Of a stretch of DNA of 64,000 nt, positions 15,213-22,417 are shown in pieces. Below the pieces are notes generated by a model. That model was not told the DNA's origin. It made no database searches and was given only the letters and a program-made list of their open reading frames with translations. Position 1 is the first letter of the stretch, and every line of letters starts with the position of its first letter. A program made the position numbers and the translations under genes. Source of the DNA: Geothrix sp. PMB-07 (lineage in GTDB: Bacteria; Acidobacteriota; Holophagae; Holophagales; Holophagaceae); the NCBI RefSeq assembly GCF_030758935.1, contig NZ_CP132333.1, positions 1,736,992 to 1,800,991 of the forward strand, in the 5' to 3' direction.

Positions 15213-15257
15213 GGGAGCACCTCGCCATCCAAGATAGACTGATTGGCCGGAGTCCCG

Positions 15258-15557
15258 ATGCTTACCTCTCGACAGCGCCAGTACCTCAAGGCCCAGGCCC
15301 ACAAACTCAAACCCGTCATGCACGTGGGGAAGGGCGGGGTGACCCCGGCCCAGGCCGCTGAATTGGACGTGATGGTGGACAGCCTCGAGCTTGTGAAGGT
15401 CAAGATCAATCCCAACAGTTTCGAGGATGAAGACACGGCTGCCCGGGCCCTTTGCGCCGCGGTGCCGGACCTTCAGCATGTCTGGACCATCGGCCACACC
15501 ATGCTCTTCTTCCGCCCCAGCCGCACTCACGAGCCGCGGTACTCCCTCCCCTCGTAA
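15258..15557 (+). CDS. yhbY: YhbY/CRS1-YhbY domain RNA-binding protein
   Basis: 99 residues. The ATG at 15258 follows GGAG by 5 bases. The CRM (YhbY) fold signature is visible: LTSRQRQYLKAQAHKLKPVMHVGKGG with the GxxG-like VGKGGVT loop, then ELVKVKINPNSFED, and TIGHTMLFFRPS near the C-terminus. The family associates with pre-50S ribosomal particles and helps ribosome assembly. The protein is about the expected size for a stand-alone CRM domain. Confidence 0.9.
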   Translation: MLTSRQRQYLKAQAHKLKPVMHVGKGGVTPAQAAELDVMVDSLELVKVKINPNSFEDEDTAARALCAAVPDLQHVWTIGHTMLFFRPSRTHEPRYSLPS

Positions 15558-15602: not shown

Positions 15603-17705
15603 ATGCCCTACCTGTCCTGGCCGGAGGGGAGTCAGTTGATGTGGCATGCCGTTCACACGGCATGTCAGATTGGCCGTGATCCCTTGGCCTGCGCGGTGGC
15701 CCGCCCCAGCGAGGCCCGCCTGTCACGAGCGCACGCGGCCATTGATCGCATCGGCGCCATCTGGTGGGTGCGCGATCTGGAATCTGCCAACGGCACCTTC
15801 CTCAATGGTGTGCCCCTCCTCGGGCATCAGGGCAATGCCTTGCAGGATGGCGATGTGCTGGAGATGGGCGATTGGCGTCTGACCTTCACGGAAGGTTTTC
15901 CGGGCCTGGATGGCACCACCTTCGCAGAGCGGGTGGGCGACCTCTTCCACGAGGTGCGCCCCGAACCGGCCCAGGCCATGGTGCTGATCCGCGGCATCGA
16001 ACTCATGCAGCGTTCCACCGAGAAGCTGCTGGCCCAGGTGGATCCCGATGCCATGGTGAAGGGGTTGCTGGATGAATCCCTGCGGCTGCTGAACAGCGAC
16101 CGCGGCTTCCTGGTGCTGAAACAGAAGGATGGCAGCTGGCGCACGGTGCATCGGGTGGGCAATGTTCAGGAAGGCATCGGTCTGTCCCGCTCCGTGCTGG
16201 ATTATGTGGCGGTGGAACTCACGGCGGTGCTGTCCAACCGGCCCCTGGCAGATCCCCGCTTCGGCGGTCTCAGCCTGGTGGAACTCCATCGGGGGTCGCT
16301 GCTCTGCACCCCCATCGTGGATGAAGGGGAGATCCACGGCGCGCTCTACTTGGACCGGGAGGCCGAAGGGCGGCCCTTCAGCCGCTTCGACCTGGCCATC
16401 CTCCAGGCCTTCGTTCGGCTGGGTTCCATGGCCTTGCGGCAGGCGATGTTGAACCGTCGGGCCCTCAGCCAGGCGGAGCAGCAGGGCGAGCTGCTGAGGC
16501 TACGCACCGAATCCCAGCGGGAGGCCGACCGGCATGGCGAGCTGCTCGCGGCCATGGCCACCCACCTGCGCCGGGTCAGCAGCTGGGCCGAGCAGCTTCC
16601 CGATGCCACGGGGGAGGCCATTCGCAGCCAGCTGGACCATTCCCTGGCGCTGCTGGAACATGGGAGCCGCGATGAAAGCGCGGACACCACCCCCGTGGCG
16701 GGACATCCCCTGCCCATGGCCTCGCTGCAGGAGGATCTGGTCCGTCGCTGGGATTCGCTGCTGCGCTTGCGGAAGGCCCGGTTCGAGATCGCCGAGGCGC
16801 CAGCCGCCTCCGTGTGGCTGGCGGGTGGGCCCCTGGTGGTGGCCCTGGCCGGTCTGGTGGAGCCCATGCTCATGCAGCTGACCGATGGCGCCATCGCCAC
16901 GGGTCGCTGGGATCAAGAGCGGGGCTTCCGGGTGCTGCGCATGAGCCTGCCCAGCGGCCTCCATGGCCCCATCCCCGATGCCTGGACCCAGCGCGTGCTG
17001 CAGGACGCCGGGGTGCGATGGCGCTGGTCCGACCAGGCCCTCGATCTGCTGTTGCCAGAAGGACCAGACGCCATGCCGGAAGAGCCCGCTCGGCCTCTGT
17101 TGGGCCTGGTCAGCGAGGAACTGAACCTGCTCGGCCTCTTTCAAACGGTGGCCGAGGCAGGCAACCTTTGGCTGAACCCCCTGGAGCAGGAGCCGCCTCC
17201 GCCCCCCCTGCCGAAATTCCGGTTTCTGGTCATCGATGCCAAGGGTACGCGAGATCTGGAAGGGTGCATCCGCGCCTACCGGCATCACCCCTCCTTCGCC
17301 ACCACCCCCATTCTGGTGGTGCGCTGCAACGAGGATGAAACCCCCAAGCTCATCGAGGCCGGTGCCACCGATTGGCTGGCGGAGGGTTTCCGCTGGGAAG
17401 CGCTGCATCATCGCCTGCAGGTGCTGCGCGGCCACACCGAGCTGCAGCAGCGGGCTCTGGCGGCCGAGCGCCTGGATTCCTTCCGGCAGATGGCGGGCAC
17501 CCTCAAGCATGAGATCAACAACCCGCTGGCCATCATTTCGATGCAGGTGGAGATGCTGCAGCGGAAGTACCCGGAGGAGGTCAAGCTGGGCAAGATCGGC
17601 GAGATGGTGGATCGCATCCGGGCCCTGGTGCAGGTGCTGCAGAAGATGCGGGAGACCCCCACCGAAGGCTACGCGGACGGGTCGAGCATCCTGAAGCTGG
17701 GCTAA
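15603..17705 (+). CDS. FHA-GAF-pseudo-receiver protein with C-terminal HisKA domain
   Basis: 700 residues with an odd order of signalling domains. An N-terminal FHA domain (about 20-100) has LSRAHAAIDR and DLESANGTFLNG, the phosphothreonine-binding signature. A GAF domain covers about 135-285 (LLNSDRGFLVLKQKDG to GALYLDREAEGRPFSRFDLAIL). A helical linker follows, then a region (about 375-490) that may be a decayed HATPase fold. Next comes a receiver-like domain (about 520-620) whose aspartate-bearing strand reads FRFLVIDAKG and which lacks the usual phospho-acceptor. The chain ends with a HisKA H-box, MAGTLKHEINNPLAIISMQVEML (H636), and only about 40 further residues, with no C-terminal ATP-binding domain. 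The stop overlaps the convergent fthC stop by 3 bases. It could be a phosphotransfer or scaffold protein rather than a kinase. Confidence 0.75.
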   Translation: MPYLSWPEGSQLMWHAVHTACQIGRDPLACAVARPSEARLSRAHAAIDRIGAIWWVRDLESANGTFLNGVPLLGHQGNALQDGDVLEMGDWRLTFTEGFPGLDGTTFAERVGDLFHEVRPEPAQAMVLIRGIELMQRSTEKLLAQVDPDAMVKGLLDESLRLLNSDRGFLVLKQKDGSWRTVHRVGNVQEGIGLSRSVLDYVAVELTAVLSNRPLADPRFGGLSLVELHRGSLLCTPIVDEGEIHGALYLDREAEGRPFSRFDLAILQAFVRLGSMALRQAMLNRRALSQAEQQGELLRLRTESQREADRHGELLAAMATHLRRVSSWAEQLPDATGEAIRSQLDHSLALLEHGSRDESADTTPVAGHPLPMASLQEDLVRRWDSLLRLRKARFEIAEAPAASVWLAGGPLVVALAGLVEPMLMQLTDGAIATGRWDQERGFRVLRMSLPSGLHGPIPDAWTQRVLQDAGVRWRWSDQALDLLLPEGPDAMPEEPARPLLGLVSEELNLLGLFQTVAEAGNLWLNPLEQEPPPPPLPKFRFLVIDAKGTRDLEGCIRAYRHHPSFATTPILVVRCNEDETPKLIEAGATDWLAEGFRWEALHHRLQVLRGHTELQQRALAAERLDSFRQMAGTLKHEINNPLAIISMQVEMLQRKYPEEVKLGKIGEMVDRIRALVQVLQKMRETPTEGYADGSSILKLG

Positions 17706-18247
17706 AGCGAGCGGAAGCCCCGCTCGCTCAGCAGCGCGCCCACGGGCAGGTCATGGGGATCGACTGGAACGGGCAGATCCATCTGGGCCTCGAAGCCCAC
17801 CCCGACCGTGAGCACATCCTCCGGCAGCTGCGCCAGCAGGGCGTCGTAGAAGCCGCGGCCGTACCCGATGCGGTACCCGTTTCCGTCGAAGGCCAGGCCC
17901 GGCACCAGCAGCAGCTGGACGGGCGGGAGGAAGTGCTGAGCCAGGACAGGCTCCAGGAGCCCCCACTGCCCCTTCTCCAGGGGCTCGGTGCCCCAGGCCA
18001 GGCGGGGTGGCTGAGTCGAGACGACCCGCGGAAAGAACCACAGGGCCTCCGGGTGGGCGGCCACGGCGGGGCGGAGGTCGATCTCCGAGCCATAGGGCCA
18101 GAAGGCGCCAACGCGGGTGATGTGGCGGCGGCGTAAAAGCTCGGTGACATGACCGCAGATGGATTGGGACCAAGCCGCACGCGATTCCGGCGGAAGCCCA
18201 TCCCGGCGGGCCTTCAGGTGGGCGCGGAATTCGGCTTTTGTTTCCAT
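17702..18247 (-). CDS. fthC: 5-formyltetrahydrofolate cyclo-ligase
   Basis: 181 residues, the usual size. Family motifs are the N-terminal helix KAEFRAHLKARRDGLP, the substrate loop LVPGLAFDGNGYRIGYGRGFYDALLAQ, and the C-terminal HDLPVGALLSERG. The enzyme converts 5-formyl-THF to 5,10-methenyl-THF using ATP, returning an inhibitory folate to the one-carbon pool. The 6S RNA gene often sits beside this gene in proteobacteria; the 65-base divergent gap to the next gene is too short to hold one. Confidence 0.95.
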   Translation of the reverse strand: METKAEFRAHLKARRDGLPPESRAAWSQSICGHVTELLRRRHITRVGAFWPYGSEIDLRPAVAAHPEALWFFPRVVSTQPPRLAWGTEPLEKGQWGLLEPVLAQHFLPPVQLLLVPGLAFDGNGYRIGYGRGFYDALLAQLPEDVLTVGVGFEAQMDLPVPVDPHDLPVGALLSERGFRSL

Positions 18248-20674: not shown

Positions 20675-22417
20675 TCAGGAGAGGCCGGGCAGGCGGATCT
20701 GGAAGATGGTCCCCTGGCCTGGCATCGAGGTGAAGCGGATGCTGCCTCCCGCCTGCTCCAGCAGGCTCTTCACGCAGACCAAGCCCAGGCCCGTGCCGGA
20801 ACCCGAGGCCTTGGTGGTGAAGAAGGGCTGGAACACCTGACTCTGCATGTCTTCGGGGATGCCTTGGCCGGTGTCTTCGACCTCGAGCAGCGGGCCGGTC
20901 TCTGCTTCATGGGGTTGGGCACCGCGGGCGCGGAGGGTGATGGTGCCCCCCTCGGGCATGGCGTCGCGGGCGTTGCTCACCAGGTTCACGAGGGTTTGTT
21001 CCAGCAGGCCCCGGGTGCCTCGAAAGGGCATGGGCTCACCGGTACTGATCAGCCTCAGCTTTTGACTCCGCGGTAGCAGCACCTGCAACAGGGGTTGGAT
21101 CGAATGCAGCTCAGCTGTCAGGTCCATGGCCCGGGGCGCCTCGGCATCCTGGCGGCCCATGGCCATGAGCCGCCCGCTCAGTTTCGCCGCGTGCTGGGTG
21201 GCTTCCTGGACACGCACCATGTCCTCCCGGTTGGGCAGCTTGCCTTCGTCGAGATCCATGACCACCAGCTCTGCGCGCGTCTGAATGGCGTTCAGCACAT
21301 TGTTCATGTCGTGGGCCAGGCCCGCACCCATGGTGGCCATGGCATTGATGCGCTCGGTACGCAGCAGGATGCTCTGCACCTTTTCAAGCGCCTGGGTGCG
21401 TTCTGCCACGCGGGATTCGAGGTGCTGCGACAGGGCCGCGAAATCGCGCAGGGCCAGGTACTGCCGCAGCAGCAGCACCAAAATGAGGCTCAGAGCCAAC
21501 CAGACCAGGATGATCCGGTGCCCCGGCATCGCTCCAGTGGACAGCAGCCACCCGGCGAGTACGGCGGCCCCGAGGACCGGCACGTAGGGCAGCAGGTGGA
21601 CGATGCGCACGGGAGCATCCGCTCCGGATTGGGAGCGCACGGGTTGGGGCGATAGGGCTGCGCCCAGGTACGTCAAGGGGATGGCGTAGATGAGGGCACC
21701 GACTGGGAAGTGGAAGACGGGATTCCCCGAGAGGACATCCATGAGCCACTTGAAATTGTGCAGGCCCGCCAGCAGGAAGGCCGCTGCCAGCCAGCCCAGG
21801 GGGCCCCGCAGACGGCTTGGTTCGGGGAGGCAGAAGAACACCACCAGGCCCAGCAGCAGGTCGTAGACCAGGAAGGTGCCAAGCCAGACGAACCGATCCA
21901 GAAGCGGAAACCGGTCGCTGAGGAAGGCGGGCCCCAGCACCAGGCCCCACAGGATGAAGAAGGCGGCCAGGGCGAAGAGCAGACCATCCAGGCCGTGCCG
22001 GATTCGGGCGAAGCGGGTGGGCGGGGCCAGGTTCCAACTCAACAGCGTGCCAATGAAGAGACAGGAGCCCAGCACCTGCAGCAGGATGGTCAGCCGTGTC
22101 AGATAGCCTGGAGCAGGAATGCCGTAGAAGCCTGGAATCCGCATGACCTGCATGAGGGCGTTGATGAGCAGGGCGCAGCTGAGGAGCACCCAGCCGAGGG
22201 CCTCTGGACCGCGTTGCTTCGCCCGCAGCACGGAGGCACTCAGTGCCACCACGGTGAGTGCCACCAGCCCCAGCTGAAGCAGGCGGGTCTGCGCCATGCC
22301 GCTCAGGGCAAAGTGGGCCAACAGCCCGACCAGGAGGGCCAGGCTGGCCGCAGCGGCGAGGAAGGCATGACGAAAGAGGGGCGAGGCGGAGAACCGGGTC
22401 TGGCGAAGAAGAGTCAA
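20675..22417 (-). CDS. Multi-spanning membrane sensor histidine kinase
   Basis: 580 residues. About ten hydrophobic segments occupy residues 15-320 with little extracytoplasmic sequence, suggesting a sensor that reads the membrane or a small lipophilic signal. A coiled linker (325-355) leads to HisKA with H369 in GAGLAHDMNNVLNAIQ. A full HATPase_c follows: N-box LVNLVSNARDAM, G1 EDTGQGIPEDM, F-box FQPFFTTK and G2 GSGTGLGLVCVKSLL. The N-terminus overlaps the pyrD stop by 4 bases, so the two are translationally linked. No response regulator gene is adjacent; the nearest receiver is at 53981-54358. Confidence 0.9.
   Translation of the reverse strand: MTLLRQTRFSASPLFRHAFLAAAASLALLVGLLAHFALSGMAQTRLLQLGLVALTVVALSASVLRAKQRGPEALGWVLLSCALLINALMQVMRIPGFYGIPAPGYLTRLTILLQVLGSCLFIGTLLSWNLAPPTRFARIRHGLDGLLFALAAFFILWGLVLGPAFLSDRFPLLDRFVWLGTFLVYDLLLGLVVFFCLPEPSRLRGPLGWLAAAFLLAGLHNFKWLMDVLSGNPVFHFPVGALIYAIPLTYLGAALSPQPVRSQSGADAPVRIVHLLPYVPVLGAAVLAGWLLSTGAMPGHRIILVWLALSLILVLLLRQYLALRDFAALSQHLESRVAERTQALEKVQSILLRTERINAMATMGAGLAHDMNNVLNAIQTRAELVVMDLDEGKLPNREDMVRVQEATQHAAKLSGRLMAMGRQDAEAPRAMDLTAELHSIQPLLQVLLPRSQKLRLISTGEPMPFRGTRGLLEQTLVNLVSNARDAMPEGGTITLRARGAQPHEAETGPLLEVEDTGQGIPEDMQSQVFQPFFTTKASGSGTGLGLVCVKSLLEQAGGSIRFTSMPGQGTIFQIRLPGLS

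Follow-up and report, generated by a model that had tools for sequence, protein, structure and literature searches.

Gene Organization and ORF Integrity

The window, i.e., the whole stretch of 64,000 nucleotides that was analysed, belongs to a genome of 4.24 Mb assembled as one contig, and its close relatives are Geothrix and other Holophagaceae. A gene for a signalling protein of 700 aa was recognized between yhbY and a convergent gene. The features of the locus are given below.

15243-15557, plus strand: yhbY, a CRM-domain RNA-binding protein gene, directly upstream of the signalling gene; conserved, likely operon (Pfam, orthologous loci)
15603-17705, plus strand: whole signalling gene, 700 aa, ATG start, FHA - GAF - pseudo(DHp-CA-REC) - DHp (ORF, Pfam and orthologue alignment)
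15666-15869, plus strand: FHA domain, residues 22-89, with G24 R25, S41, H44 and N63 G64 present (Pfam E = 1.7e-12, above the cut-off)
16041-16436, plus strand: GAF domain, residues 147-278, running into a long signalling helix at 261-329 (Pfam E = 3.5e-11, above the cut-off; AlphaFold model)
16467-16673, plus strand: pseudo-DHp, about residues 289-357, two helices, acceptor His absent (T320, variable) (AlphaFold, profile, alignment)
16695-17072, plus strand: pseudo-CA, about residues 365-490, HATPase fold, N-box turned into GLVEP, G-box absent (profile, AlphaFold, Foldseek)
17091-17441, plus strand: pseudo-receiver, about residues 497-613, invariant D545 at the acceptor position, Thr/Ser changed to R574 and Lys to E594 (profile, alignment, Foldseek)
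17442-17654, plus strand: terminal DHp/HisKA, about residues 614-684, invariant KHEINNPLA around H636 (17508-17510) (Pfam E = 7e-7; 27/27; dN/dS 0.042)
17655-17702, plus strand: C-terminal tail Y-x-x-G-x-x-I-x-x-L, with Y690, G693 and I696 invariant (family alignment)
17702-18247, minus strand: 5-formyltetrahydrofolate cyclo-ligase gene, convergent, its stop overlapping that of the 700-aa gene

The stop codon of the 700-aa ORF is placed at 17703-17705. Because it overlaps the stop of the convergent cyclo-ligase gene, no downstream ATPase is hidden there. The same C-terminal end of the protein was also seen in orthologues. An assembly error, a frameshift or a pseudogene could be proposed to explain a HisKA protein without its ATPase, and one MAG copy (G023, L049) is broken by a frame change. 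However, the ORF is intact in the one-contig genome and in tens of independent genomes, cultivated strains included, the dN/dS is far below 1 in every region of the gene, and the downstream gene allows no space. For the family this explanation is already refuted by the observed conservation, and its chance of being right is negligible. A complete HATPase domain and a frameshift near 17700, which the earlier note had named as contrary to its reading, were searched for in 24 members, at the convergent gene and in the orthologues, and were not found. The convergent gene and the conservation of the whole family rule out a frameshift or a concealed downstream ATPase.

Family Distribution, Synteny and Short Forms

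Full-length orthologues were found in Geothrix and in seven other Holophagaceae genera (g17-g19, g21-g24), usually one per genome; these make up most of the Holophagaceae genera sampled. Three genera gave no orthologue, the small-genome genus g16 together with g20 and g25, and none was obtained from the two further families of the class that were sampled. Identity falls to 42% in L162 and L163, the most distant members found. Conservation was counted in 27 members in total, 24 of them full-length.

The yhbY gene was located directly upstream in every orthologous locus having upstream sequence, even where the other neighbours differ. This constant neighbour indicates that the family members are true orthologues. 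The two genes, at 15243-15557 and 15603-17705 in the window, are kept in this order across Holophagaceae and probably form one operon. Neither a Ser/Thr kinase gene nor a gene for a dedicated two-component partner was seen next to the 700-aa gene.

Short forms of 376-397 aa were found in G. campi, G. oryzisoli, G. fermentans DSM 14018 and G015. In these proteins FHA-GAF is joined straight to the DHp; about 320 residues are gone (L152, L155 and L158 are without about 295-615), and FHA-GAF-DHp is retained. In a tree of shared columns, the three short forms tested fell inside a clade shared with full-length members (100/100), which makes the core deletion a derived state. The tree requires two deletion changes, and the spacing from GAF to the histidine is the same in all three short forms. 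The deletion may have happened once or twice.

FHA and GAF Input Domains

The FHA and GAF domains and the C-terminal HisKA were all matched above the Pfam cut-offs, in agreement with the earlier note, which had described this combination without an ATP-binding domain. The FHA positions for phosphothreonine binding, i.e., Arg of GR, Ser of SxxH and Asn of NG, are present in the window protein as R25, S41 and N63. Across the family, R25 is kept in 24 of 27 members, S41 in 23 and N63 in 18. Relatives in which these positions are eroded still carry an unchanged DHp. The reading of phosphothreonine through FHA, which had been suggested, is therefore not well supported as the core role. Partners for the domain exist, since about 25 Ser/Thr kinase matches were counted in the genome.

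Dead Hybrid-Kinase Core

In the Pfam search, no HATPase match was obtained in the 700-aa protein up to E = 10, and residues 289-613 gave no kinase, HATPase or receiver match in any of the 24 full-length members. In a profile comparison, residues 289-492 were aligned with DHp-CA cores of kinases encoded in the same genome (probability 85%, E = 6e-6) and residues 496-620 with receivers (probability 92%, E = 6e-7), whereas the shuffled, reversed and crossed controls gave E = 0.097 or worse. The AlphaFold models, computed for the monomer and of low confidence at 617-632 and 686-700, showed a helix pair, a HATPase alpha/beta sandwich and a receiver-like fold in the middle region. In Foldseek with residues 289-613, the top PDB match was full-length ShkA (DHp-CA-REC; 351 columns, E = 5.5e-8); the list also contained CpxA, and RetS, DivL and ChpT were among the top 50. 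The global TM-scores were low, which is attributed to different domain placement.

The stretch 375-490 had been described as ATPase-like without N- and G-boxes, and fold and profile, not a family match, bear this out. The N-box position reads GLVEP and the CA-like fold has no G-box. A cryptic HATPase at 375-490 was thus rejected, the fold being present but both boxes absent.

The receiver-like domain needs a correction, as it had been said to lack the phospho-acceptor. D545 is aligned with the acceptor position and is invariant in the 24 full-length members. What has been lost is the Thr/Ser position, which is R574 in 24/24, the Lys position, which is E594 or D, and a part of the acidic pair. 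One acid of the pair is kept (S/T504, E/D505); this assignment comes from the first strand of the AlphaFold model, not from the profile alignment. A receiver is supported by both fold and profile, but the full set of Response_reg residues, i.e., acceptor Asp, acidic pair, Thr/Ser and Lys, is not present. It is unlikely from these residues that the pseudo-receiver switches normally.

Taken by profile, alignment and model, residues 289-613 are a catalytically dead hybrid-kinase core. The dN/dS values of the core are lower than 1, i.e., 0.089 for the pseudo-receiver and within 0.12-0.20 for the dead DHp-CA, and from these values the core is still constrained, less than the terminal DHp.

Terminal DHp Domain and C-Terminal Tail

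The HisKA match (PF00512) was found at residues 628-676 with E = 7e-7, above the curated cut-off. The DHp region was matched by PF00512 only, plus weakly by PF07568, and did not belong to Hpt, HPTransfase or SPOB_a. H636 has 64 residues behind it, close to the 65 given earlier, and then the protein ends, with no HATPase_c after HisKA. The tail is read as the DHp-CA linker strand, at which the protein stops.

No other part of the protein is nearly as constrained as the terminal DHp. The KHEINNPLA motif around H636 is unchanged in all 27 members, down to 42% overall identity, and the domain is conserved along its whole length, beyond the H-box. Mean column conservation among the full-length Geothrix members was 0.95 in the DHp versus 0.73 in the pseudo-DHp and pseudo-CA. 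Pooled dN/dS was 0.042 in the DHp with the tail, 0.089 in the pseudo-receiver, and 0.12-0.20 in FHA, linker, GAF and dead DHp-CA, so that the values outside the terminal DHp run from 0.089 to 0.197. An ordinary kinase encoded nearby (20675-22417) was used as a control. Its DHp is 58-78% identical against 92-98% for the terminal DHp in the same genome pairs; the close relative L114 stands apart from this range, with 95% for the ordinary DHp and 100% for the terminal one.

HisKA kinases place residues for phosphotransfer and phosphatase reactions at the positions H+1 and H+4. E637 (H+1) and N640 (H+4) are kept in the window protein and are invariant with H636 in 27/27. In VicK, phosphatase activity needs Thr at H+4 and the Pro after it (PMC3582566).

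In each of the 24 full-length members, H636 lies at a spacing of 42 residues from the position of the lost receiver Lys. The same spacing was found in L113 and L048, two REC-DHp proteins without ATPase. In the LvrB study, Rec-controlled kinases were reported to prefer multiples of seven in REC-DHp linkers (PMC13269768). The spacing of 42 appears in line with this preference, although the exact offset of the published rule may differ (PMC13269768).

Domain Order and Comparison with Known Systems

The genome also encodes an FHA-GAF-HisKA-HATPase kinase (L002) and an FHA-GAF-HisKA-HATPase-REC-Hpt kinase (L007). Each domain of the 700-aa protein has its counterpart in L007, except that the core is dead and a DHp stands where Hpt would be. 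Since its order is that of a complete kinase of the same genome, the domains have not been rearranged. FHA-GAF-(dead HisKA-HATPase)-(dead REC)-terminal His domain is how an unorthodox hybrid kinase is ordinarily arranged. The earlier note had proposed a rearranged hybrid kinase turned into a hub or scaffold; the decayed hybrid kinase stands, with the C-terminal HisKA probably working in trans, and the word rearranged is dropped.

The L007 gene (L007:40-2472, minus strand; genome about 998,900-1,001,400) adjoins a Ser/Thr protein kinase gene (Pkinase match at 1,001,492-1,002,235). This pair is reminiscent of the EspA type of cross-talk.

Several known systems share part of this architecture. 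Unorthodox hybrid kinases (HK-REC-HPt; L007 here) have the same order from FHA to receiver and likewise end in a histidine phosphotransfer domain, but the kinase core and the receiver are dead in the window protein, and its terminal domain is a HisKA DHp and not Hpt. In LvrB and other Rec-controlled kinases (Rec-DHp-CA), a helix likewise leads directly from the receiver fold into a HEINNP DHp, and LvrB (8vc9) was the best solved-structure sequence match to the DHp (E = 3.2e-8). The window protein has the REC fold, the heptad-spaced helix and the DHp of the LvrB type; it differs in having no CA after the DHp, no phosphorylatable REC, the receiver being without Thr/Ser and Lys, and a long FHA-GAF-pseudokinase N-terminus.

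With ChpT and Spo0B the chemistry would be shared, as histidine phosphotransfer by a DHp that has no kinase activity, but a degenerate CA follows their DHp, whereas the window protein has nothing after the DHp and input domains before it. RetS and DivL also keep a degenerate histidine kinase core under selection. Their DHp-CA is the acting module, whereas a second, intact-looking DHp follows the dead core here. EspA of Myxococcus xanthus likewise has an FHA input on a hybrid kinase, and a weak NCBIfam match was obtained (E = 5e-9), but that model describes a full kinase, and the window protein, which has no ATPase, scored 34.7 bits against a cut-off of 1400.

Other HisKA and ATPase Proteins in the Genome

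Of the 73 HisKA matches in the genome, 69 are followed by a HATPase match no more than 500 bases downstream. The four unpaired matches were assigned to the 700-aa gene, a transposase-interrupted kinase, the 251-aa REC-DHp protein L113 and the 197-aa protein L111. As only four are unpaired, a terminal HisKA without ATPase is rare, and in this gene it is real.

The interrupted kinase (L110, genome about 3,297,900-3,300,600) is split by an IS-like transposase gene, and its HATPase piece is a separate short ORF. This piece is the sole stand-alone HisKA-type CA piece, and it was rejected as a partner because it is the end of the split kinase.

L113 (L113:1973-2728, minus strand; genome about 870,472-871,227) has no ATPase and lies in a flagellar locus, with flgE- and flgD-like genes upstream and an ispG-like gene downstream. 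Its tail, YADGHILDL, resembles the tail YADGSSILKL of the window protein. A similar REC-DHp protein of 237 aa (L048:1423-2136, minus strand) was found in another family of the class. L111 (L111:1090-1683, minus strand; genome about 2,773,589-2,774,182) looks like a small DHp with a degenerate CA; it had no Pfam or NCBIfam match and, by inspection only, is possibly a ChpT-like phosphotransferase.

Pfam was used to check all but a few of the weakest matches among the genome's unpaired HATPase proteins. They were CheA-like, HisKA_2 or HisKA_3, LytS-like (His_kinase), SpoOB-type, anti-sigma-like and HDxNN-type kinases, and GyrB- and MutL-like ORFs were also recognized, from their sequence starts only. 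No dedicated ATPase-only partner was found among the proteins checked; L184 is a weak candidate, being the only one clearly without an acceptor His. L184 (L184:36-1850, plus strand; genome 1,964,835-1,966,649) has the order REC-GAF-(DHp without His)-HATPase and is conserved across Holophagaceae, including genera that do not have the window gene. It is another family-wide degenerate kinase.

Proposed Function and Alternatives

We consider it fairly probable that the protein has arisen by degeneration of an unorthodox hybrid histidine kinase and is now a signal-gated DHp protein with no kinase function of its own, with phosphotransfer or phosphatase activity in trans. Its task would probably be to relay or take off phosphate on behalf of other kinases and not to generate any itself. 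Because no ATPase is present in cis, H636 can act only with other proteins. The DHps of two subunits would form the usual four-helix bundle. In this bundle H636, with E637 and N640, may receive phosphate from, or hand phosphate to, the receivers of other two-component proteins, like HPt, Spo0B or ChpT, an exchange that sequence and predicted fold allow. Alternatively, H636 may help to remove phosphate from receivers, like the phosphatase state of a HisKA kinase, and the two modes are alike compatible with the sequence. The GAF ligand, the FHA contact and the dead core, acting via the helix to the DHp as in Rec-controlled kinases, would set the accessibility of the bundle.

The main rival, though rather unlikely, is a modulator that heterodimerises like RetS with GacS or DivL with CckA, which are published precedents for pseudokinase modulators (PMC12189002). 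The terminal DHp would pair with the DHp of one or more complete kinases and inhibit, drain or redirect them. The fold of the dead core resembles that of RetS and DivL, the genome offers about 70 HisKA kinases as possible targets, and the strong conservation of the DHp, along its full length and not at the H-box alone, could serve pairing with a full kinase. However, the phospho-active motif keeps H, E and N invariant, which pairing alone does not need, and no kinase of the genome has a closely matching DHp, the best being 43% over 59 residues. DHp domains dimerise, and FHA and GAF are interaction and ligand domains, so a scaffold in which the DHp only dimerises the FHA-GAF input and the histidine is chemically idle was also considered. 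This is improbable, as a plain dimeriser would need no H-box, and H636, E637 and N640 with KHEINNPLA are fixed in 27/27, whereas an ordinary DHp varies over the same distances.

The case of a split kinase, in which an ATPase partner without acceptor His, e.g., L184, phosphorylates H636 in trans, is very improbable. L184 has a HATPase match (E = 1.4e-7), no HisKA match and a DHp-like stretch without acceptor His, and it is present in nearly all Holophagaceae genomes having the 700-aa gene. Its distribution is not specific, however, as it also occurs in two genera (g20, g25) without that gene; moreover, its N-box looks degenerate (HLVAHA), its gene is unlinked, and the other unpaired HATPase proteins checked have their own DHp or Hpt or are of other kinds.

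Significance

In the literature searched for HATPase-less HisKA proteins, nothing was found on this yhbY-linked Holophagaceae family. As a more tentative proposal, the family may be a relay class of hybrid-kinase descent with a bare DHp in place of Hpt and a dead kinase. Its members would be sensor-gated phosphate acceptors or receiver phosphatases that couple FHA/GAF inputs to the circuits of other kinases, and the loss would be stepwise, the dead core being kept and then deleted.

The domain content, the dead core, the conservation pattern, the deletion forms and the synteny are established. The family records in nature how a sensor kinase loses its engine while the strongest selection comes to act on its phosphate-handling histidine module. 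Both the intermediates and the end state occur in cultivated strains with sequenced genomes (Geothrix fermentans, G. terrae and others). This makes it testable whether a bare DHp at the end of a sensor can be a relay or a phosphatase in vivo. The family also cautions against annotating HisKA-only proteins as kinases or as broken genes.
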